64,000 nt of DNA from Chloroflexales bacterium ZM16-3 (lineage in GTDB: Bacteria > Chloroflexota > Chloroflexia > Chloroflexales > Chloroflexaceae): the NCBI GenBank assembly GCA_004138175.2, contig RYFE02000002.1, forward strand, positions 1 through 64,000, in the 5' to 3' direction. Below the pieces are notes generated by a model. The model was not told the DNA's origin, searched no databases, and saw nothing but the letters and a program-made list of their open reading frames with translations. A program made the position numbers and the translations under genes. This document shows, in pieces, positions 13,980-24,950 of this stretch (positions are counted from its first letter, which is position 1; the number at the start of each line of letters is the position of its first letter).

Positions 13980-14010
13980 CAATTTTATTATTCCACCGGT
14001 AGGTGATTCT

Positions 14011-16589
<2,579 letters not shown>

Positions 16590-16593
<4 letters not shown>

Positions 16594-16617
16594 GGGCGCG
16601 GCGCGCCGTGCCCCTAC
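16590..16617. repeat. GTAGGGGCGC palindrome at the copA stop
   Basis: Starts GTAGGGGCGCGGCGCGCC and ends CCCCTAC. The TAG at 16591 is the copA stop codon. Confidence 0.8.
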
Positions 16618-16620
16618 ATG

Positions 16621-16669
16621 TCATGCGCACGGGGGGCGTCAGCTTTGCTGACGCCCCCCGTGCGCATGA
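16621..16669. terminator. Strong bidirectional hairpin between copA and the CBS gene
   Basis: A 23-bp perfect stem (TCATGCGCACGGGGGGCGTC plus AGC, and complement) with a three-base loop between two convergent genes. No long T run, but the stability makes termination or 3'-end protection likely. Confidence 0.65.
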
Positions 16670-16677
16670 TCCATAAA

Positions 16678-17964
16678 CTACGCCTTCCCCCCCAGCGCCG
16701 TGAGCACCCCCGCCCGGCCGACGATCCCTACGAACGTCCCATCGGCGTCCACCACCGGCAGCGCCTTAACCTTGTGGGCCATCATCAGGCGGATGGCCTC
16801 GGCCACCGGCGCGTCGGCGCGCACCGTGATCGCCGGGCTGCTCATCGTCTCTGAGGCGAGGCGACCGTAGCCCTCGATCTGGAGCGCGGCCGGCCCCTTG
16901 CCGGCGCTCAGCCATGCCGCCAGCTGGCTCAGGGCGCTCGGCGGCAGGCGACGTGACGCCCGGCGCAGCACGTCCCCGTCGGTGATGATGCCCAGCACGC
17001 CCTGGTTCTCATCGAGCACCGCCACCCGGCGCATCGGGCTCTCCAGCAGCGCGTCGAGGGCGTCGGCCACTGGCGCTTCGGCGCGCACCGTCTTCGGGCC
17101 AGCGATCATCACGTCGGCCACCGTGGCCGGCGCGCCCTCCGGCAGGCGCAGCGGCTCATCGGGGCGCTGGCGCAGCCCCTCGGCCACCGTCTTCAGTAGG
17201 TCGGAGCGGCTCACCATGCCCACCAGATGCCCCCCGGCACCCACCACCGGCATACGCTTGCGGTCGTGGCCAGCCATCACCGCAGCGGCCTGGGCCAGCG
17301 ACATATGCTCGGGGATCGTCTGCGGATTCGGGGTCATCAGATCGGCGGCGGACTGAGGCTGGGCGGCGAGCGCCTCGGCCTGGGCGGCGCGCTCGCTTAG
17401 CGGCAGGCTGCGCTGGAGCCGCACCGAGAGATTCTGCGCGCCACGGCTCAGCAGGTCGCTATCGGTGATGATGCCGACCACCTGTCCACCGCCGTCCACC
17501 ACCGCCACCGCCCGCAGCCCGCGCTCGATCAGCAGGTTGACGATATGGACAACCGGCTCCTCGGGGGCGACGCGGGCCACATCGCGGCTCATCACATCGG
17601 CCACCGTGAGGTGGCGCGGGAAGGGGCCGCCCTCGCGCTGGCTGTGGAACACCACCTCCACCGGGGTGATCGCGATCATGCCCTCGGACACCAGATCGCG
17701 CAGCTTCGGGATCACCAGGGCCATCCGGTCGGCCCGGTCGATCACCGTGATCACCAGGGGCAGGTGGCTGGCGATGTCGATCGCCATCTCGCTGTGGATC
17801 ACCTGGTGGGTGCCGTAGCCACCAACGCCGCGAAGCACCGTTGCGCCGGGGCAGCCCGCGTCGCGTAACACATCGACGATCTGCTGGGCCAGCGACCGCC
17901 CTCCGAGGCTATCGCCCTCACCTATGTAGATCCAGAGCTGCTGCGTTCTTCCTGAGTCGTTCAT
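16678..17964 (-). CDS. DUF190 / quadruple CBS-domain protein
   Basis: 428 residues from ATG at 17964 with GGAGG five bases upstream. Residues about 8-108 are a DUF190 domain, a PII-like ferredoxin fold (LWIYIGEGDSLGGRSL at the start). Four CBS domains follow, seen as repeated VADVMSRDV, AADLMTPNP, VADVMIAGP and SETMSSPA motifs, each ending in a (G)IITDxDLL or VGIVGRAG-type strand. CBS pairs bind adenine nucleotides and act as energy sensors. DUF190 proteins are often found near ion channels or the fluoride exporter CrcB, but none is next to it here. It converges on copA. The regulated partner is unknown. Confidence 0.85.
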   Translation of the reverse strand: MNDSGRTQQLWIYIGEGDSLGGRSLAQQIVDVLRDAGCPGATVLRGVGGYGTHQVIHSEMAIDIASHLPLVITVIDRADRMALVIPKLRDLVSEGMIAITPVEVVFHSQREGGPFPRHLTVADVMSRDVARVAPEEPVVHIVNLLIERGLRAVAVVDGGGQVVGIITDSDLLSRGAQNLSVRLQRSLPLSERAAQAEALAAQPQSAADLMTPNPQTIPEHMSLAQAAAVMAGHDRKRMPVVGAGGHLVGMVSRSDLLKTVAEGLRQRPDEPLRLPEGAPATVADVMIAGPKTVRAEAPVADALDALLESPMRRVAVLDENQGVLGIITDGDVLRRASRRLPPSALSQLAAWLSAGKGPAALQIEGYGRLASETMSSPAITVRADAPVAEAIRLMMAHKVKALPVVDADGTFVGIVGRAGVLTALGGKA

Positions 17965-18307
17965 CTGGGCCTCCGCATCATTGCAGGCGTTCCAACGCGC
18001 CCGACAGAACATTCGCCATAATCGTACCGCATTTTTTTCGGTTGTCAGTGATCAATTCGCTAGGACACGACAAGATCTAGCACCAAAGCGCAACGGCGCG
18101 AGCCCTTGTCGTATGCCTGGAAGTAGTTTGAATGTAGGACTATTGGCTACGCAACTTCAGCTGAACAGCCCGTAACCCAATAGTTAAAACTTCGTTTAAA
18201 TAGCGTGTGAACAGCGGCGCAAGGAACTACGGAAGCGTCAAAGATGCCGTTTGCCGGAGCGTGCGCCGCACCGAACCACGCAGCAGAAGAACAAGGAGGC
18301 ACCTGTA
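17965..18307. other. Divergent intergenic region with candidate operator
   Basis: 343 bp without a gene between the divergent CBS gene and the small membrane-peptide gene. It is AT-richer than its neighbours around 18110-18210. An inverted repeat ACTATTGG ... CCAATAGT has arms at about 18139 and 18176, and AT-rich TTAAAAC/GTTTAAAT runs follow. These could hold the promoter of the redox operon and a binding site for its winged-helix protein; this is inference. Confidence 0.35.
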
Positions 18308-18580
18308 ATGGCAGCTCCCAAGAGCATCGGACGGCCCGCGCACACGATGAAGATCGTGAAGTATGTGATCACCATCGGTGCGGTGATTTTTACCAGCCTG
18401 GGATCGCTGGCGCTCAACGATGAGCGCGCCCTCGCGGGCACCAGCGACCTGGCCTCCATGAGCGTCCCCGAGCAGCTGATCGACGGCGTGCGCGACGCCC
18501 TCGCGCCGCTGGTGGGCTGGCTCGCCGAGCCGGAGGAGAGCCCGGCATCTTGCTCGCAGCAGGTGAACGCCAACCAGTAG
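18308..18580 (+). CDS. Small single-helix membrane or exported peptide
   Basis: 90 residues from ATG at 18308 with AAGGAGGCACCTGTA upstream. A hydrophobic segment at about 17-35 (VKYVITIGAVIFTSLGSLAL) could be a signal anchor. The rest (about 36-90) is acidic and amphipathic, with one Cys near the end (PASCSQQ). I recognise no family. It is the first gene of a likely three-gene operon with the ferric-reductase/winged-helix fusion 44 bp downstream and the 7Fe ferredoxin. It may be a membrane partner or cofactor-binding subunit of that fusion; this is inference. Its stop TAG opens the palindrome GTAGGCGCGCAGCGCGCTGC. Confidence 0.7.
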   Translation: MAAPKSIGRPAHTMKIVKYVITIGAVIFTSLGSLALNDERALAGTSDLASMSVPEQLIDGVRDALAPLVGWLAEPEESPASCSQQVNANQ

Positions 18581-18624
18581 GCGCGCAGCGCGCTGCGCCC
18601 CAACACATCTGGAGGATCTACTGA

Positions 18625-19782
18625 ATGAGCGAAGACAAAGCAGCCCGCCTGGCGGCCATCAGGGCAGCAAATAGCGCGGCGGCGCCTGTAGCGCTCGCCC
18701 CAGCCCCCAAGGCCGCGCCCGCGCCGAAGCAGGTAGCCGCCCTGCCCGAGAACTCACTGCTGAGCCTACAGCTGCGGATCGTGCTCGGCCTGATGTTCAT
18801 CGTCGTGAGCGGCCTCCTCATCCTCACCGCCATGGAGATCTGGCAGCCGATCCTCCGCGCCGCCCTGCCCGCCGTGGAGACCAGCAGCTACATCTCGATG
18901 TCGCGCTCAAGCGCGATGGTTGGCTATGTCCTGCTATGGATGTCGATGGCCTTCGGCCTGGCGATCACCAGCAAGGCCACGCGGATCTGGCCGGGAGGCC
19001 CGGTCGCCGTGGACCTGCACCAGCACCTGAGCATCCTGGGCCTGGTCTTCTCGGTCTTCCACGTCTTCATCCTGCTGGGCGACCCGGTGCTGAACTTCAC
19101 GCTGGTGAAGGCGCTGGTGCCCAACGTACCGAACGGCTACCGCCCAACGTGGATGGGCAACCTGGGCAAGGCGGCCCTCTACCTGATGGTGATCGTCGCC
19201 CTAAGTCACTATGTTCGCTCCTCTATCGGCCCACGGGTGTGGCGCAAGGTTCACTACGCCAGCTTCGCCGTCTTTGTCCTGGCGCTGCTGCACGGGGTGT
19301 TCGCCGGCAGCGATACGGGCACCTTCTGGGCCGCGTGGCTGTACGCCTTCAGCGTCCTGAGCCTGGTGGGCCTAACGATCTACCGGGTGCAGAAGGCCCG
19401 CAAGCAGCGCGCGCCCGCCGCCGCCGGGCTCCAGGTCGGCGCGGTGCGCTTCGACCCGATCTCCCGCATGGTCACCCTGCACGAGGGGCGCAAGGTTGAG
19501 CTGCGCATCACCGAGGCCAACCTGCTGTACTACCTGATGCAGAACGCCGGTAGGCCCCAGAAGGCCGATCAGATCCTGGCCGGCGTCTGGGGCCAGGGCT
19601 ACCGAGGCGAGAGCAAGCTGGTAGACGGCTACATCCGCCGCCTGCGCGCCCGCATCGAGCCCAGCCATGACACGCCAACCTACATCCGCACCGTCGAGCA
19701 GGGCTACCTCTTCGACGGGAGCGCGCCCCATCTCACCACCGGCGCGGCCGAGGGGCTCGGCCGCGCGCGGGCGTCCGCCTGA
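18625..19782 (+). CDS. Ferric-reductase-like transmembrane domain fused to OmpR/PhoB-type DNA-binding domain
   Basis: 385 residues, ATG with GGAGGATCTACTGA upstream. After an Ala/Pro-rich N-terminus, residues about 47-255 hold six or so membrane helices. They contain histidines with heme-ligand spacing: H132/H134 and H146 (VDLHQHLSILGLVFSVFHVF), H210 and H223 (KVHYASFAVFVLALLHGV). This is the pattern of ferric-reductase/YedZ-like b-type heme domains. Residues about 270-365 form a complete winged helix of the OmpR/PhoB C-terminal type (ITEANLLYYLMQNAGR, GESKLVDGYIRRLRARIE, YIRTVEQGYLF). There is no receiver domain and no flavin-binding domain. It looks like a one-component membrane redox or heme sensor that binds DNA directly. 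It lies between the small peptide and a 7Fe ferredoxin. Confidence 0.85.
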   Translation: MSEDKAARLAAIRAANSAAAPVALAPAPKAAPAPKQVAALPENSLLSLQLRIVLGLMFIVVSGLLILTAMEIWQPILRAALPAVETSSYISMSRSSAMVGYVLLWMSMAFGLAITSKATRIWPGGPVAVDLHQHLSILGLVFSVFHVFILLGDPVLNFTLVKALVPNVPNGYRPTWMGNLGKAALYLMVIVALSHYVRSSIGPRVWRKVHYASFAVFVLALLHGVFAGSDTGTFWAAWLYAFSVLSLVGLTIYRVQKARKQRAPAAAGLQVGAVRFDPISRMVTLHEGRKVELRITEANLLYYLMQNAGRPQKADQILAGVWGQGYRGESKLVDGYIRRLRARIEPSHDTPTYIRTVEQGYLFDGSAPHLTTGAAEGLGRARASA

Positions 19783-19815
19783 CGAACCTCATTAGCGCAC
19801 AAGGAGACACACCCA

Positions 19816-20055
19816 ATGATCTACATCATCACCGAGCCCTGCATCGGCATGAAGAACGCCAGCTGCGTCGCCGTCTGTCCGGTGGACTGCATCTACGAGG
19901 GGCCGGATCAGTACTACATCAACCCCGACGAGTGCATCGGCTGCGGGGCCTGCGAGGCGGAGTGCCCGGTCTCGGCGATCTACGCCGAGGACGAGGTGCC
20001 GACGGAGTACGCCAGCTACCTGGAGAAGAACAAGGGCTTCTTCGTCGGCGCGTAG
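19816..20055 (+). CDS. 7Fe ferredoxin ([3Fe-4S][4Fe-4S])
   Basis: 79 residues, ATG with AAGGAGACACACCCA upstream. The cysteines are C9, C17, C21, C25 and C40, C43, C46, C50. The first motif is CIGMKNASCVAVCPVDC: the usual second Cys is replaced and a spacer inserted, exactly as in Azotobacter/Thermus-type 7Fe ferredoxins, so it should carry one 3Fe and one 4Fe cluster. It is a soluble low-potential electron carrier. It lies 33 bp after the heme-domain/winged-helix gene and probably in the same transcript. It could be a target of that regulator or the electron donor that sets its redox state; both are inference. Confidence 0.93.
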   Translation: MIYIITEPCIGMKNASCVAVCPVDCIYEGPDQYYINPDECIGCGACEAECPVSAIYAEDEVPTEYASYLEKNKGFFVGA

Positions 20056-20122
20056 AGCACTGGGCCACTGAGTCACTGAGCCACGGAGGCGCGCGCCTCC
20101 GTGGCTCAGTGACTGAATATAT

Positions 20123-20245
20123 GCAATACCGCAGAAGTAACCCTGTCACCCATGTCACGCTGAGCGCAGCGAAGCGTCCCGGCCGGGATTCTTCGCTGCG
20201 CTCAGAATGACAGAACACTTCACAGGGTTACTTCTGCGGTATTGC
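20123..20245. mobile_element. MITE copy 2 (123 bp) with 8-bp target duplication
   Basis: Identical to the copy at 13857. It is flanked on both sides by GAATATAT, a perfect 8-bp duplication different from that of copy 1. The identity shows recent transposition. It lies between the ferredoxin gene and the Cys-rich gene. Confidence 0.95.
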
Positions 20246-20267
20246 GAATATATGCATGTGATGGGCG

Positions 20268-20639
20268 CTACGCGCCCTCCGCCCACTGGAGGTATGTCTC
20301 CAGCGGGCCGTTGTAGTAGACGTGGACGACCTGGTTGAAGGTGATCTTGCCGACCGCGTCCCAGACCTCGTTGTCGTCCTGGCTGTAGGCCACGAGCATG
20401 CCCCGCTCGGGGGCGTACTCGTCCTCGCCGGGCGGGATGACGAAGGCGAGCCACACGTCGGGGTGGCGCGACTCGACATCGGCGATCAGCTCGACCCGGC
20501 CGCGCTCGACCATGCCGGTGTAGGGGCAGCCGCAGTCGCAGCCCGGCCCGCAGCTGGAGTGGTCGCCGTCGCCGGTGCCGCACGACGAGAGCTTGGTGCC
20601 GCCGTGCTCGGCGCTGGTGAGATTAATAAGCGTTGGCAT
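20268..20639 (-). CDS. Cysteine-rich hypothetical protein
   Basis: 123 residues from ATG at 20639; the frame extends upstream into a hairpin, which is unlikely to be translated. The N-terminal part holds a dense cluster of six cysteines (LSSCGTGDGDHSSCGPGCDC, then GCP), which looks like a metal or Fe-S binding site. The rest (about 45-120) is an ordinary mixed alpha/beta sequence with VWLAFVIPPGEDEYAPERGM and VVHVYYNGPLETYLQWAEG. I do not recognise a family. It lies downstream of serS in the same direction, separated by a 55-bp perfect hairpin. The ribosome site AGAGGGT is very close to the start. Confidence 0.65.
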   Translation of the reverse strand: MPTLINLTSAEHGGTKLSSCGTGDGDHSSCGPGCDCGCPYTGMVERGRVELIADVESRHPDVWLAFVIPPGEDEYAPERGMLVAYSQDDNEVWDAVGKITFNQVVHVYYNGPLETYLQWAEGA

Positions 20640-20685
20640 ACCCTCTATGGTATCACACTCTTTAGGGCTACGCCCTACAGCCCCT

Positions 20686-20740
20686 TCATATTTCTGGTTG
20701 AAATTGCCAGCGAATCTGGCAATTTCAACCAGAAATATGA
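20686..20740. repeat. Perfect 25-bp-stem hairpin downstream of serS
   Basis: Arms start TCATATTTCTGGTTGAAATT and pair perfectly over 25 bp around the loop CGAAT. It is unusually AT-rich for this window and has no T tail. It could be a 3'-end hairpin of serS or a decayed inverted-repeat element. Confidence 0.7.
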
Positions 20741-20768
20741 TCATCTTTGGCGGGTGGGCACCGCCGCG

Positions 20769-22037
20769 TCAGCGGATTACCTCAAGGCCGCCCATGTAGG
20801 GCCGCAGCACCTCGGGCACGATGATGCTGCCGTCGGCCTGCTGGTAGTTCTCGATGATCGCGATCATCACACGGGGCAGGGCCAGCCCCGAGCCGTTCAG
20901 CGTGTGCAGGAACTCGGGCTTCGCGCCGGGCTCGGGCCGGTAGCGCAGGTTGGCCCGCCGCGACTGGTACGACTCGAAGTTGGAGCAGGAGCTGACCTCT
21001 AGCCACTCCTCGACGCCGGGCGCCCACAGCTCCAGGTCGTACTTCATCGTCGCCGTGCCCAGGTCGGCGGTGCAGAGCCGCAGCAGCCGGTAGGGCACGC
21101 CCAGCCCTTTGCAGATGTCCTCGGCGTTGTCGATCAGCGTGGTCAGCTCGGCGTAGCTCGTCTCTGGGGTGACGAACTTGACCATCTCGACCTTGTCGAA
21201 CTGGTAGACGCGCTTGATCCCGCGCACATCGCGGCCTGCGCTCATCTGCTCGTTGCGCCAGCAGGGCGTGTAGGCCACGTGGTAGATCGGCAGCTGGCTG
21301 GCCTCTAGGATCTCCTCGCGGTAGAGGTTCGTCACCGGCACCTCGGCGGTGGGGATGAGCGTGAGGTCAGCGCCCTCGATCTTGAAGAGGTTCTCGCCGA
21401 AGCGCGGCAGGTTGCCGGTGCCGACCAGCACCTCCTCCTTGACCACGTAGGGCGGAGTGATCTCGCTGTAGCCGTGCTGCTGGGTGTGTACGTCGAGCAT
21501 CCAGCTGATCAGGGCGCGCTGGAGCCGCGAGCCCGCGCCCTTGAGTACGAAGAAGCGGGTGCCGCTGAGCTTCACGCCGCGCTCGAAGTCGATGATGCCG
21601 AGGGCCTCGCCCAGCTCCCAGTGCGGCTTCGGCGTGAAGTCGAACTGCCGCTGTGCGCCCTCGACGCGGACGACGACATTGTCGTGCTCGGTCGTCCCGT
21701 CGGGCACATCGGGGTGGGGCAGGTTCGGCAGCCAGAGCATCAGGCGGCTGAACTCGGCCTCGGCCTCGCCTGCCTCACGGTCCAGCTCGGCGATCCGGTC
21801 GCCCACCTCGCGCATAGCGGCGATCTTCGCCTCGCGCTCGTCCTTGTCCTTCATCTTGCTGATCTCTTTGGAGACCGCGTTACGCTCGGCCTTGAGCGCC
21901 TCCACCTCTTTGATCAGCGCCCGGCGGCGCTCGTCCACCGCCAGCAGCGCGTCCACCTGGGCCGGGTCGTCCCCCTTGCGGCGCAGCCCCGCCCGTACCA
22001 CCTCGGGCTGCTCACGGATCAGCTTAATGTCGAGCAT
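20769..22037 (-). CDS. serS: Seryl-tRNA synthetase
   Basis: 422 residues, ATG at 22037. Residues 1-110 form the long antiparallel coiled-coil arm that binds the long variable arm of tRNA-Ser ([20 protein letters not shown] at the start). The class II catalytic core shows motif 2 ([19 protein letters not shown]) and motif 3 ([20 protein letters not shown]). It charges tRNA-Ser, and tRNA-Sec if present, with serine. It is the last of four same-strand genes that begin with a T-box leader at about 23.8 kb. The T-box discriminator-pairing base fits tRNA-Ser, so serS is probably the original target of that leader. Confidence 0.96.
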
Positions 22038-22067
22038 CGTTCACTCCTATTCTCAATTATCCAGGCC

Positions 22068-22095
22068 GTAGGGGCGCGTCGCGACGCGCCCCTAC
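22068..22095. repeat. GTAGGGGCGCG palindrome between serS and the upstream gene
   Basis: A perfect 28-bp palindrome (GTAGGGGCGCGTCG and its complement). On the minus strand its TAG is the stop codon of the gene at 22092-22571. Confidence 0.85.
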
Positions 22096-22571
22096 TTCTT
22101 TGCCATGTCCTGTAGGACCCGCACAATATCGCCCATGCCGATGCTGCCGTCGCTGTCGCCGTTGAGCGAGGTGAACATGCGCGTCAGCATCTCGCGCTGC
22201 TGCTGGTCGGCGATGCGTCTGGGCACCAGATAGACCATCTCGCCGTCCTTGATGAAGTAGAGCGCATAGGGGCTGCCGCCGCGATCCAGGGCCGCCAGCA
22301 CCGCCTGCCGCACCATCGGGTGGGTCACCGGCACCAGGCTGCCGACAGGCGCGCCCGCCGGGAGATCCATCTCCTCCGGTGCCATCTCGGTCAGCGGCGC
22401 GGCGGAGAGCGGGCTCTGCTGCGAGGTCATCGGCTGCGAGGAGGACATGGTCGGCGGCAGCCCGCTCACCTTCCCCGGGAAGTTGCCCCAGGCCCGGTTG
22501 AGCATCACCAACACGATCAGGATGACGACAACCCCGCCGGCTACGATACTAATGAAGAGGTAGAGATCCAT
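22092..22571 (-). CDS. Membrane-anchored hypothetical protein
   Basis: 159 residues from ATG at 22571 with GGAGG six bases upstream. A single N-terminal membrane helix (about 3-24, LYLFISIVAGGVVVILIVLV) is followed by a Ser/Pro/Met-rich linker to about residue 75. A small cytoplasmic domain comes next: HPMVRQAVLAALDRGGSPYA, YFIKDGEMVYLVPRRI and a final DGSIGMGDIVRVLQDM helix. No known domain is recognised. It sits between the Nudix pair and serS and its stop codon lies in a palindromic repeat. Confidence 0.7.
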   Translation of the reverse strand: MDLYLFISIVAGGVVVILIVLVMLNRAWGNFPGKVSGLPPTMSSSQPMTSQQSPLSAAPLTEMAPEEMDLPAGAPVGSLVPVTHPMVRQAVLAALDRGGSPYALYFIKDGEMVYLVPRRIADQQQREMLTRMFTSLNGDSDGSIGMGDIVRVLQDMAKK

Positions 22572-22596
22572 CGGTGGCCTCCGAGAATGCAAAAGC

Positions 22597-22628
22597 CCAA
22601 CCCCCAACCCCCAACCCCCAACCCCTAG
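22597..22628. repeat. AACCCCC heptamer tandem at the Nudix gene end
   Basis: Four tandem CCCAACC-type heptamers. On the minus strand they begin immediately at the TAG stop of the Nudix gene at 22625. The same heptamer occurs at bases 1-15 of the window. Confidence 0.85.
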
Positions 22629-23113
22629 ATCAAGCTATAGCTCCAGCTCAGCGGCTGCCCGTCATGGTAGGGCATAACCCCGTGGAACTGGCGCGGGTCG
22701 GCGCTGAAGATCAGCGGCAGGAAGTGGCGGTCGCCCGGCCAGAGCGGCAGGTCGAGCATGCGCTCGGCGGGCACCCACTCTAGCTCGCCCTCGCTGTTGC
22801 GGGCGGGCGGCTCGCCCGTGAAGGCGCTGATCACAAAGAGAAAGCCGAGCCAGTCCTCGCCGTTCTTGCCGAAGCCGGGCCAGCTGACCGTGCCGCGCAG
22901 GGTCAACTCAGTGGCCTCGATGGCGGCCTCCTCGCGCAGCTCGCGGCGCATGCCGGCCACCACGTCCTCGTCGGGCTCGACCTTGCCGCCCAGGCCGTTG
23001 TACTTGCCGAGGTGCATGTCGCCGGGGCGGGCGTTGCGGTGGATCATCAGCACCGAGCGACCGTCGGGCGAGAGCACGTAGCCGAGGGTGGCGATGATCG
23101 GCGTGTAGGGCAT
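22625..23113 (-). CDS. Nudix hydrolase, 8-oxo-dGTPase-like
   Basis: 162 residues. The Nudix box GGKVEPDEDVVAGMRRELRE then EA is complete (G-x5-E-x7-REUxEE pattern). The preceding HLGKYNGLGGK and following WPGFGKNGEDWLGFLF and WVPAERM resemble the MTH1/MutT branch that hydrolyses oxidised purine nucleotides. Some members instead act on other nucleoside diphosphate derivatives. It lies 9 bp after the second Nudix gene and is clearly co-transcribed with it, behind the T-box leader. The stop TAG abuts an AACCCCC heptamer repeat. Confidence 0.88.
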   Translation of the reverse strand: MPYTPIIATLGYVLSPDGRSVLMIHRNARPGDMHLGKYNGLGGKVEPDEDVVAGMRRELREEAAIEATELTLRGTVSWPGFGKNGEDWLGFLFVISAFTGEPPARNSEGELEWVPAERMLDLPLWPGDRHFLPLIFSADPRQFHGVMPYHDGQPLSWSYSLI

Positions 23114-23122
23114 GGGCTCCTC

Positions 23123-23623
23123 CTACCAGGGCAGGGCCAGGCCGAAGAGGCCCTGGCGAAACTCGGCGATGCGGCGCAGGGATCCAGCCTCGGTGTTGGC
23201 GGGCACGTCCTGCGGCAGAAAGAAGCGGGCGTCCACGATCTCAAGGTCGCCGACGGGCGGGCGGGCCTCGCCGAGCGCATCGCAGAGGAAGACGCCGACG
23301 TGGTTGTTGAAGCCATAGTTGTGATTGTAGTAGACGCCGAACAGGCGCTGGATCTGGGCGTCGCAGCCGCCCTCCTCGCGCACCTCGCGCAGGGCTGCCG
23401 TGGCCATATCCTCGCCACGGTTGACGCCGCCGCCGGGCAGGCTCCAGGGCGTGGGGCCGCTGCGGTGGCGCACCATAAGCAGGCGGTCGCCGCGCGTCAC
23501 CACGGCGCGCACGCCCAGCTCGGTGGGCCGGGCCAGGCGGCGCAGCCCGTCGCGCACGGTGACGATCGTGTGGTAGGCGAGGGTGAGCCCGCCCTCGCGC
23601 ATGCCGTGGGCTATATGATTCAT
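23123..23623 (-). CDS. Nudix hydrolase
   Basis: 167 residues from ATG at 23623 with GGGGTGCGG upstream; a GTG two codons earlier (23629) is possible. Nudix box GGGVNRGEDMATAALREVRE then EGG is complete. The N-terminal 40 residues (YHTIVTVRDGLRRLARPTEL) look like a membrane-proximal or dimer helix seen in some Chloroflexota Nudix proteins. The substrate is not predictable. The start codon lies about 18 bases after the U run of the T-box terminator, so it is the first gene under T-box control. Confidence 0.85.
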   Translation of the reverse strand: MNHIAHGMREGGLTLAYHTIVTVRDGLRRLARPTELGVRAVVTRGDRLLMVRHRSGPTPWSLPGGGVNRGEDMATAALREVREEGGCDAQIQRLFGVYYNHNYGFNNHVGVFLCDALGEARPPVGDLEIVDARFFLPQDVPANTEAGSLRRIAEFRQGLFGLALPW

Positions 23624-23632
23624 CCGCACCCC

Positions 23633-23875
23633 ATAAAAAAACCTCGCCCTAGAGAAGGACGAGGGAGAAGACCTCGTGGTGCCACCTTCATTCGCCCGGC
23701 GCGTGGCGCGGGCCTCAGAGGAGCGCTGTAACGGGCGCGCCCGATCGGGCTTACTGCGGCCTGCGCCGGTTCGGCTGATGACTCAGGAGGGGATGCGCTG
23801 TGCCTGGCCACCGCCTCGCAGCTCCCGGCGGCTCTCTGAAGACCTAGACGCGGCGCGCACTCCATCACCGTCGCT
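23633..23875 (-). promoter_or_regulatory. T-box riboswitch leader (candidate tRNA-Ser)
   Basis: The minus-strand RNA carries the T-box core GAAGGUGGCACCACGAGG, with UGGC at 23678-23686. Its C would pair with discriminator G73, as tRNA-Ser has. Near the 5' end AGAGAGCC resembles the Stem I AG-bulge region. The 3' end is a terminator stem (CCUCGUCCU ... AGGGCGAGG, 23642-23664) followed by seven U. The 5' strand of this stem can instead pair with ACGAGG of the T-box, giving the mutually exclusive antiterminator. Uncharged tRNA would let transcription into the Nudix-Nudix-22092-serS genes. UCC triplets lie in the candidate specifier region, but I cannot fix the specifier codon by eye. Confidence 0.85.
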
Positions 23876-23881
23876 GGGCAA

Positions 23882-23910
23882 ATTATAGCAGGGGCGCCCC
23901 GGCGGCGCAA
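23882..23910 (-). promoter_or_regulatory. Promoter of the T-box operon
   Basis: On the minus strand TTGCGC, a 17-base spacer, then TATAAT. Transcription would start near 23875, just upstream of the T-box leader. Confidence 0.75.
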
Positions 23911-23948
23911 GCCCTGCCGCCTGGAACCTGCAACCGCCTCACTGATGT

Positions 23949-24950
23949 TTACTGCTTGCTCCAGATCCGCAGGTTCAGGTTCAGATCCTCGACGATCTCC
24001 TCGGCTAAGCGCACATCCTTAAAGTAGGCTTCGATATCGCCCTGGCCAAGGGCCGCCCCGCTGCGCCAGAGGGCGGGCGGCTCAAAGTAGTTCTTGTTGG
24101 TGCTGATGGCGATGTAGATCTGCGCGTTCACAAATGCGATCGCCACCGGCGCATCGATCTCGTTGCGAAAGCGGGTGAGCCGCTCCATCAGGCTGGGCGA
24201 GAGGATGTAGCGCGCCTCGACCTGGTCGGTCGACTGCACCGCAAACAGGCGCTCGAACTCGGGGTCCTCCAGGCGCACCATCTCGCCGGGCCGCCCGTCG
24301 ATCTTGCTCCCCCAGCCCTGCATCATGCGGCCCAGACCGCCCAGCGCGCGCTCGGCCGTGTCGGGCAGCACAAAGGTCTGCCCCTGAAAGTCCTTGTTGA
24401 AGTCGGCGATGAAGAAGATCCCGCGAAAGATCGTGTGCCACGTGGTGCGCCGGTTGCCCTTCGAGTCCGTCGTGGTGGTCTTATACTCAGCGTGTACCTC
24501 GGAGAAGTGAAAGGCCGTCGCCCCCACCCGCCCGCTGAAGCGATCCTCGGCCCGGTAGCGGTCGATCCGGTGGCGGTAGATCTCGCTGTCGGAGAACTCA
24601 CGCTCGCTGATCCCGCCGCCCGGCATGTAGGACAGGTCAGGGTCGATCACCTTGGCCAGGCGGGCGATCACCTGAGACTTGAAGTAGCTGCGGTACTCCT
24701 GCATCGCTCCATGGACCAAGAACCCCCAGCCAATGAAGCCGATGGCGAGCGGGATGATGAGGCCAAATGGCCCGATCACGCGCACGAGCACTAGGGCCAA
24801 GACGATGGCGATCGGCACGATGATGGCGGCGCTCAGCAAGGCCCGCTTGCGCGCCCGCAGCCGGCGCTGTTCAAGCTCGTCGAGGATGGGCCGCAGCTCG
24901 CCCTGGTACAGCGCGGCCAGCGATGGCTGGTTGTGTGATGTGGTAGGCAT
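23949..24950 (-). CDS. DUF3137 membrane protein
   Basis: 333 residues. Two close hydrophobic helices lie at about 40-90 (ALLSAAIIVPIAIVLALVLV, FGLIIPLAIGFIGWGFLV). A DUF3137 domain follows (GGGISEREFSDSEIYRHR, GIFFIADFNKDFQGQTFVLP, YILSPSLMERLTRFRN). Its ATG overlaps the stop of lemA by one base, so the two are translationally coupled. DUF3137 proteins often pair with LemA proteins; their biochemical role is unknown. A C-terminal amphipathic helix (YFKDVRLAEEIVEDLNLN) ends the protein. Confidence 0.88.
   Translation of the reverse strand: MPTTSHNQPSLAALYQGELRPILDELEQRRLRARKRALLSAAIIVPIAIVLALVLVRVIGPFGLIIPLAIGFIGWGFLVHGAMQEYRSYFKSQVIARLAKVIDPDLSYMPGGGISEREFSDSEIYRHRIDRYRAEDRFSGRVGATAFHFSEVHAEYKTTTTDSKGNRRTTWHTIFRGIFFIADFNKDFQGQTFVLPDTAERALGGLGRMMQGWGSKIDGRPGEMVRLEDPEFERLFAVQSTDQVEARYILSPSLMERLTRFRNEIDAPVAIAFVNAQIYIAISTNKNYFEPPALWRSGAALGQGDIEAYFKDVRLAEEIVEDLNLNLRIWSKQ

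Follow-up and report, generated by a model that had tools for sequence, protein, structure and literature searches.

A 64,000-nucleotide stretch of DNA from Chloroflexales bacterium ZM16-3 (contig RYFE02000002.1 of assembly GCA_004138175.2, positions 1 to 64,000; this whole stretch is called the window below) contains an open reading frame (ORF) whose 385-residue product combines a ferric-reductase-like membrane domain with a C-terminal winged helix of the OmpR type. The locus raises the question of whether this ORF is a genuine single gene and, if so, what a protein of this composition may do. We confirmed that ORF 18625-19782 is a single intact gene that represents a real and rare fusion. 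Sequence comparisons suggest that its product may be a membrane-integrated one-component redox regulator descended from an electron-transfer protein with two hemes, a reading to which we give a probability of about one half.

An intact and rare fusion gene

An earlier note on this DNA, made from the sequence alone, had described the 385-residue protein as a fusion and had named a frameshift or an assembly error as a danger to that description. The same fusion is uninterrupted in its nearest fused relative, Oscillochloris sp. ZM17-4 (locus L001), and in G430, a genome of a different family (locus L118; 53% identity across residues 1-368). Since the fusion is intact in these two genomes in addition to that of the window, an assembly join or frameshift is excluded and the description stands.

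Fusion homologs were searched for in Chloroflexota, with one additional genome_contigs scan that detects close relatives only, and for most matches the stretch of the query that was covered decided between fused and unfused. Within the family (41 genomes), fusions occurred in the window's genome (G000; 6.27 Mb in 127 contigs) and in G034 (apparently ZM17-4) alone. At the order level (82 genomes, up to 23 candidates scored in each), one more fusion was found, that of G430, which lies outside the family. At the class level (158 genomes, up to 11 candidates each), 72 matches were obtained with an E limit of 1e-28, 3 of which reached through the winged helix, and a phylum sample of 400 genomes yielded no additional fusion among the candidates scored (up to 4 each). 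The G430 assembly is a fragmented bin of 3,840 contigs with a contamination value of 8, and the fusion lies on a contig of 3.3 kb; the taxonomic place of G430 is therefore uncertain, but the gene itself is intact. One other long match, in G191 (query 1-321), proved to be unfused when the gene was read. All 20 distant relatives with long frames matched the membrane-domain profile, and none had a winged-helix profile match in the same ORF at E up to 0.1 (one neighboring ORF, in L117, did match). Eight of these 20 Chloroflexota relatives (L103, L108, L109, L112, L116 and others) carry a C-terminal tail of a different kind, 185-215 residues long; the tails displayed start with a hydrophobic segment and perhaps comprise an extra helix and an outer domain.

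The three fusions form one clade in the membrane-domain tree (support 100/99) and in the winged-helix tree (98/90). This membrane-domain tree omitted the partial genes L119 and L120, and the winged-helix tree omitted L090, L062 and L005. The grouping in both trees is what a single fusion inherited by all three genomes would produce; given the long branches, it is not proof of a single event. The two domains have diverged alike between the window and G430 (identity 53.6% for the membrane domain and 54.8% for the winged helix). Nearest to the fusions in the winged-helix tree is another Chloroflexales regulator, with weak support (85/65). Derivation of the winged helix from the regulator that adjoins unfused genes is disfavored, as those regulators form a separate group in the tree. 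A literature search of titles and abstract openings, with most subscription journals and preprints outside its coverage, returned no report of a protein in which a winged helix is joined to a ferric-reductase-like domain.

A membrane domain with four invariant histidines

An AlphaFold model of the membrane part shows six helices at low confidence (mean predicted local distance difference test score, pLDDT, of 59.9 for the whole chain). The model of this domain is poor, two full-length sequences having been usable, and a simple hydropathy scan found five membrane helices and missed the fourth. Basic residues lie between helices 2 and 3, between helices 4 and 5 and after the last helix, a pattern that would fit a cytoplasmic C-terminus.

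Four histidines, H132, H146, H210 and H223, are invariant in all 48 aligned membrane domains. As in the ferric reductase domain superfamily, two are located in transmembrane helix 3 (TM3) and two in TM5, and their spacings of 14 and 13 residues equal those of NOX2 (101/115 and 209/222). In excerpts of PMC3591440, NOX2 residues 101/209 and 115/222 are paired as inner and outer heme ligands, respectively. By analogy, the membrane domain is predicted to hold two b hemes, an inner one bound by H132 and H210 and an outer one bound by H146 and H223. The earlier note had proposed histidine pairs at heme spacing, with either H132 or H134 as the partner of H146, and had made their value depend on conservation in homologs. 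The pairs are conserved, but the H134 alternative was dropped: this residue is present in 40 of the 48 homologs and is Gln in the G430 fusion, whereas H132, the predicted TM3 ligand beside H146, is found in all of them. According to the same excerpts, most short bacterial forms of the ferric reductase domain have merely two or three of the four histidines; compared with these, the membrane family seen in the window is less usual because it has all four and no dehydrogenase domain. The membrane domain is also strongly constrained, with a ratio of nonsynonymous to synonymous substitution rates (dN/dS) of 0.135 between the window and ZM17-4 (p 3e-12).

A Pfam search of the fusion detected no receiver (E up to 1), FAD or NAD domain, in agreement with the earlier description of a protein without receiver, flavin or NADPH domains. 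Having no receiver match, the fusion does not class as a two-component response regulator. It shares the four histidines and their spacings with the ferric reductase/NOX proteins (PMC3591440, excerpts) and differs from NOX in having neither an FAD nor an NADPH domain. In the excerpted part of this 2013 survey, six extensions of bacterial ferric reductase domains were found, all of which concern electron transport or exchange; the fusion would add a DNA-binding extension to this superfamily.

The N-terminal segment of the fusion (window 18625-18765; L001:5896-6030) contains the motif DKAARLAAIRAAN, which is doubled in ZM17-4 and recurs as [AV]RLAA[IL]R.A in 18 of the 48 membrane proteins.

An OmpR/PhoB-type winged helix

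The C-terminal domain matches Pfam PF00486 (Trans_reg_C) at residues 288-362 with E 9.9e-17, above the cut-off. It is the sole confident region of the AlphaFold model, where blocks spanning residues 271-360 have pLDDT of 80-89 and one block 73, and its Foldseek neighbors are the domains of VicR, PhoB-DNA, PhoP-DNA, RpaA, CadC and ToxR. A sequence search of the PDB with an E limit of 1e-5 returned 27 distinct sequences, whose names identify them as response regulators or as regulators of the OmpR family. The full OmpR/PhoB winged helix that had been recognized by eye is thus borne out by both the Pfam match and the fold.

Excerpts of PMC5430869 describe five DNA contacts that are conserved across CadC, PhoB and PmrA. 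When we mapped these positions onto the window's winged helix (the mapping is our own), four of the five were retained (W322, R341, T356 and Y361), and Ala (A314) replaced Arg50. The recognition helix and the wing show no difference between the window and ZM17-4, while 12 other positions of the winged helix vary. The recognition helix is basic, and the net charge of the winged helix is +4 in the window and ZM17-4 and +10 in G430, versus +2, 0 and +1 in three response regulators. It is plausible, and we consider it likely, that the winged helix of the fusion binds DNA.

With ToxR and CadC (PMC5936718 and PMC5430869, excerpts) the fusion has in common an OmpR-type winged helix that is tied to the membrane and lacks a receiver domain. 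However, ToxR and CadC have an N-terminal DNA-binding domain, one transmembrane helix and a C-terminal periplasmic sensor (PMC5936718, excerpt), whereas in the fusion the winged helix is C-terminal and follows several hydrophobic segments of a polytopic, heme-type domain. The reversed order predicted here, which had already been noticed, excludes membership in the ToxR/CadC group. The closest winged helices found belong to OmpR/PhoB-type regulators of Chloroflexales (L002, 57% identity; G000:C60, 44%), which group with the fusions at the weak support given above and, unlike the fusion, carry a receiver domain (by sequence) and the Arg of the wing.

Unfused relatives and changes in the fused clade

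The window's genome also encodes two paralogs of the membrane domain that lack a winged helix. We examined the neighbors of 43 loci, including the window and ZM17-4; as many contigs end early, the counts are lower bounds. An ApbE-type gene was present in at least 23 loci, an OmpR-type response regulator in at least 20 and a small PepSY-type protein in at least 19, and none of the three was found in the two fused loci of this set. Pfam searches with representatives recognized ApbE (E 2e-55 and 7.2e-59) and PepSY (E 2.2e-20), as well as a protein with receiver and Trans_reg_C domains and a haem-binding-domain protein. In the usual arrangement, a kinase and a regulator are divergent from genes for the PepSY protein, a small peptide, ApbE and the membrane protein. 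Thus, the statement that there is no flavin domain is true of the fusion protein, but its unfused relatives often adjoin the gene of a flavin transferase.

An upstream ORF on the same strand that ends in TRSSR or SRSSR was found in 32 of 45 unfused loci (TRSSR in 29) and in none of the three fused loci; when each locus was scanned more loosely over its whole length, the count was 34 of 45, but chance matches were included, one of them inside the window's own region. In L008, L009, L060, L086 and others, this product is a small membrane peptide whose arm is rich in Pro and Ala and whose C-terminus is the conserved TRSSR; its gene often adjoins ApbE. The one peptide examined had no Pfam match; such peptides could be flexible arms that carry a flavin or another group at the tip.

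Judged by this neighborhood, the membrane protein falls among the MsrQ-like systems associated with flavinylation (PF01794; PMC8238504, excerpts), which it also resembles as a six-helix, heme-type membrane protein. The partners named in these excerpts are NAD-binding, NuoF-like and VIT1 proteins, with no DNA-binding domain among them. The fusion differs from these systems in having a winged helix, and no ApbE gene was recognized in the stretch read around it. As the unfused family often stands beside a two-component system, an association with gene control would not be new to it. One histidine kinase of the window's genome (L089:1623-2999; G000:C41) has PepSY in its sensor part (PF03413, E 4.2e-9) and adjoins an OmpR-type regulator of the kind that neighbors unfused relatives.

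Several features changed in the fused clade. Q182 and S227, which are invariant in all 45 unfused relatives and which we infer to lie near the outer heme, are Lys and Ala in all three fusions. No ApbE, PepSY or FMN-binding gene was recognized by eye beside the fused genes (window 14000-24000, L001 4000-9500 and the 3.3-kb L118). The small membrane peptide that had been noted before the fusion is indeed upstream in all three fused loci. The peptides of this clade lack the TRSSR tail and have in common a Cys near the end. That of the window is 81% identical to its ZM17-4 counterpart and 21% identical to that of G430, with PA..C common near the end; the alignment with G430 is weak, and the start codon of the G430 peptide was our choice.

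Proposed redox regulation and alternative explanations

The unfused relatives probably carry electrons through the membrane, to or from flavin-linked partners in the periplasm. The outer interface of the fused clade was seemingly remodeled (Q182K, S227A, TRSSR tail gone, ApbE not nearby) with the histidines retained, and a cytoplasmic winged helix would have been added near the inner heme. Membrane or periplasmic partners, and perhaps also the ferredoxin, would set the redox state of the hemes. This state would in turn govern how the winged helix dimerizes or is oriented and hence its DNA binding, with no phosphorylation involved. In its most specific form, for which we would offer slightly less than even odds, the two-heme conduit has become a transcription factor, and a change in heme redox state moves the winged helix on or off DNA, needing neither a kinase nor phosphorylation nor a soluble messenger. 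If true, the hemes, topology, DNA binding and redox switching that we infer for the fusion would amount to a direct wire from membrane electrons to transcription. The Chloroflexales group includes filamentous anoxygenic phototrophs. The protein would also show a route from a redox enzyme to a regulator, with the unfused paralogs of the same genome as built-in controls.

A number of observations weigh against this reading. The match of the membrane domain to Pfam PF01794 (Ferric_reduct; residues 98-220, E 6.7e-5) scores 23.4 bits and is below the curated cut-off of 28, as are those of unfused relatives (22.0 and 23.4 bits); at E 0.01 the match is absent for L009, L060 and the G430 fusion, and the PDB holds no sequence relative of this domain at E up to 1. 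The winged helix has no counterpart of Arg50, a lack that it shares with the nearest response regulators, and G430 retains three of the five mapped contacts (PMC5430869, excerpts), with Glu at the T356 position. The wing Arg, present in 31 of 36 winged helices compared, has given way to another residue in each of the three fusions (E, E and Q; E358 in the window), the wing is one residue shorter in the window and ZM17-4, and just 9 of the 18 residues of the recognition helix are shared with G430. Between the window and ZM17-4, the dN/dS of the winged helix is 0.41, versus 0.135 for the membrane domain, and its constraint is not significant alone (p 0.08). The possibility raised earlier, that the winged helix lacks DNA-contact residues, therefore applies in part: W322, R341, T356 and Y361 are kept, but Arg50 and the wing Arg are gone.

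The loss of the wing Arg, the shortened wing and the half-conserved recognition helix would also fit a fusion that is still an electron-transfer protein, whose winged helix does not bind DNA and serves as a cytoplasmic docking or dimerization module, e.g., for the ferredoxin encoded downstream in two of the three fused loci. We consider this unlikely, as the recognition helix is basic, the four contacts named above are retained and the net charge is positive; in addition, G430 retains the winged helix without an adjoining ferredoxin. A further alternative is a trigger enzyme, in which electron transfer across the membrane is still active and the protein has the second task of regulating a few genes, perhaps those of its own operon. 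Retention of all four heme histidines, the strong constraint on the membrane domain and a candidate dyad upstream of the operon speak for such a dual role, which nevertheless appears quite unlikely to us, because the fused clade no longer has ApbE nearby, the TRSSR tail or the two otherwise invariant residues, and the usual outer electron partner is seemingly gone. A winged helix that is a functionless passenger, newly acquired or in decay, seems very improbable: its rarity (3 of the 72 class-search matches) and its weak constraint between the window and ZM17-4 could be explained in this way, but the winged helix is kept open in G430, where it is ~55% identical to that of the window and matches Trans_reg_C with E 8.9e-21. 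Since the fused clade looks as if it has lost an outer electron partner and gained a cytoplasmic output, we prefer a redox-sensing regulator over an enzyme.

Ferredoxin, candidate operator and neighboring genes

On the plus strand, the genes for the 90-residue peptide, the fusion and a 79-residue ferredoxin follow one another, separated by 44 and 33 bases, and plausible ribosome sites are present (Table 1). The three-gene operon suggested earlier stands with regard to the peptide, which precedes the fusion in 3 of 3 fused loci, but the complete order of peptide, fusion and ferredoxin is found in 2 of 3. In ZM17-4, 234 bases separate the fusion from the ferredoxin; in G430 the ferredoxin is not downstream of the fusion and its place is taken by another ORF, which we take to be RecN-like. 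This absence weakens the case for the ferredoxin as a fixed partner. The window's ferredoxin matches FdxA_Actino with E 1.3e-30 and 105.8 bits, below the model cut-off of 125. FdxA-like genes occur in 38 of the 41 family genomes (E up to 1e-20), with two copies in G000, G034, G020 and G031; the copies are close together on one contig in G020 and G031, whereas in G000 and G034 the extra copy is the one downstream of the fusion, a placement that favors a link between the two in these genomes. The region after the ferredoxin gene (window 20056-20262) contains inverted repeats, including two cgcagcgaag-type elements.

Upstream of the operon, a nested dyad (ACTATTGG...CCAATAGT flanking a 10-bp palindrome) is a weak candidate for an operator. 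The dyad block, which was picked post hoc, differs from ZM17-4 at 6 of 68 sites (binomial p 0.003 to 0.01, depending on the assumed rate), and the dyad pattern occurs at a single place in the window's genome. The 295 bases that hold the dyad also contain two other 8-bp inverted repeats, and ZM17-4 has a mismatch in both dyad elements.

Table 1. Coordinates of the fusion gene, its predicted functional sites and adjoining features in the window
Feature	Position	Strand	Basis
Candidate operator, nested dyad	18139..18184	.	Weak lead
Small membrane peptide (90 aa) with a single hydrophobic segment at residues 16-34 and a Cys near its end	18308..18580	+	ORF; hydropathy 1.78 at 16-34
Fusion protein, ferric-reductase-like membrane domain and C-terminal OmpR-type winged helix, 385 aa	18625..19782	+	ORF, Pfam, intact homologs in L001 and L118
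Membrane domain, residues 48-258, probably six helices	18766..19398	+	Sub-threshold PF01794 match, low-confidence model, hydropathy
H132 codon, predicted inner-heme ligand with H210	19018..19020	+	48/48 homologs; NOX2 His-101 by spacing
H146 codon, predicted outer-heme ligand with H223	19060..19062	+	48/48 homologs; NOX2 His-115 by spacing
H210 codon, predicted inner-heme ligand	19252..19254	+	48/48 homologs; NOX2 His-209 by spacing
H223 codon, predicted outer-heme ligand	19291..19293	+	48/48 homologs; NOX2 His-222 by spacing
OmpR/PhoB-type winged helix, residues 269-363	19429..19713	+	PF00486 E 9.9e-17, model, Foldseek
Recognition helix, residues 329-346	19609..19662	+	18/18 identical to ZM17-4, 9/18 to G430
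FdxA-like 7Fe-type ferredoxin, 79 aa, second genomic copy	19816..20055	+	Profile match

Divergent from the fusion operon, on the minus strand (16678-18012), lies a gene in which a DUF190 domain is fused to four CBS domains; its position is the same in ZM17-4. Further away, the ORF at 14011-16593, the product of which is presumably a copper-type P-ATPase, contains an in-frame stretch that resembles a repeat element.
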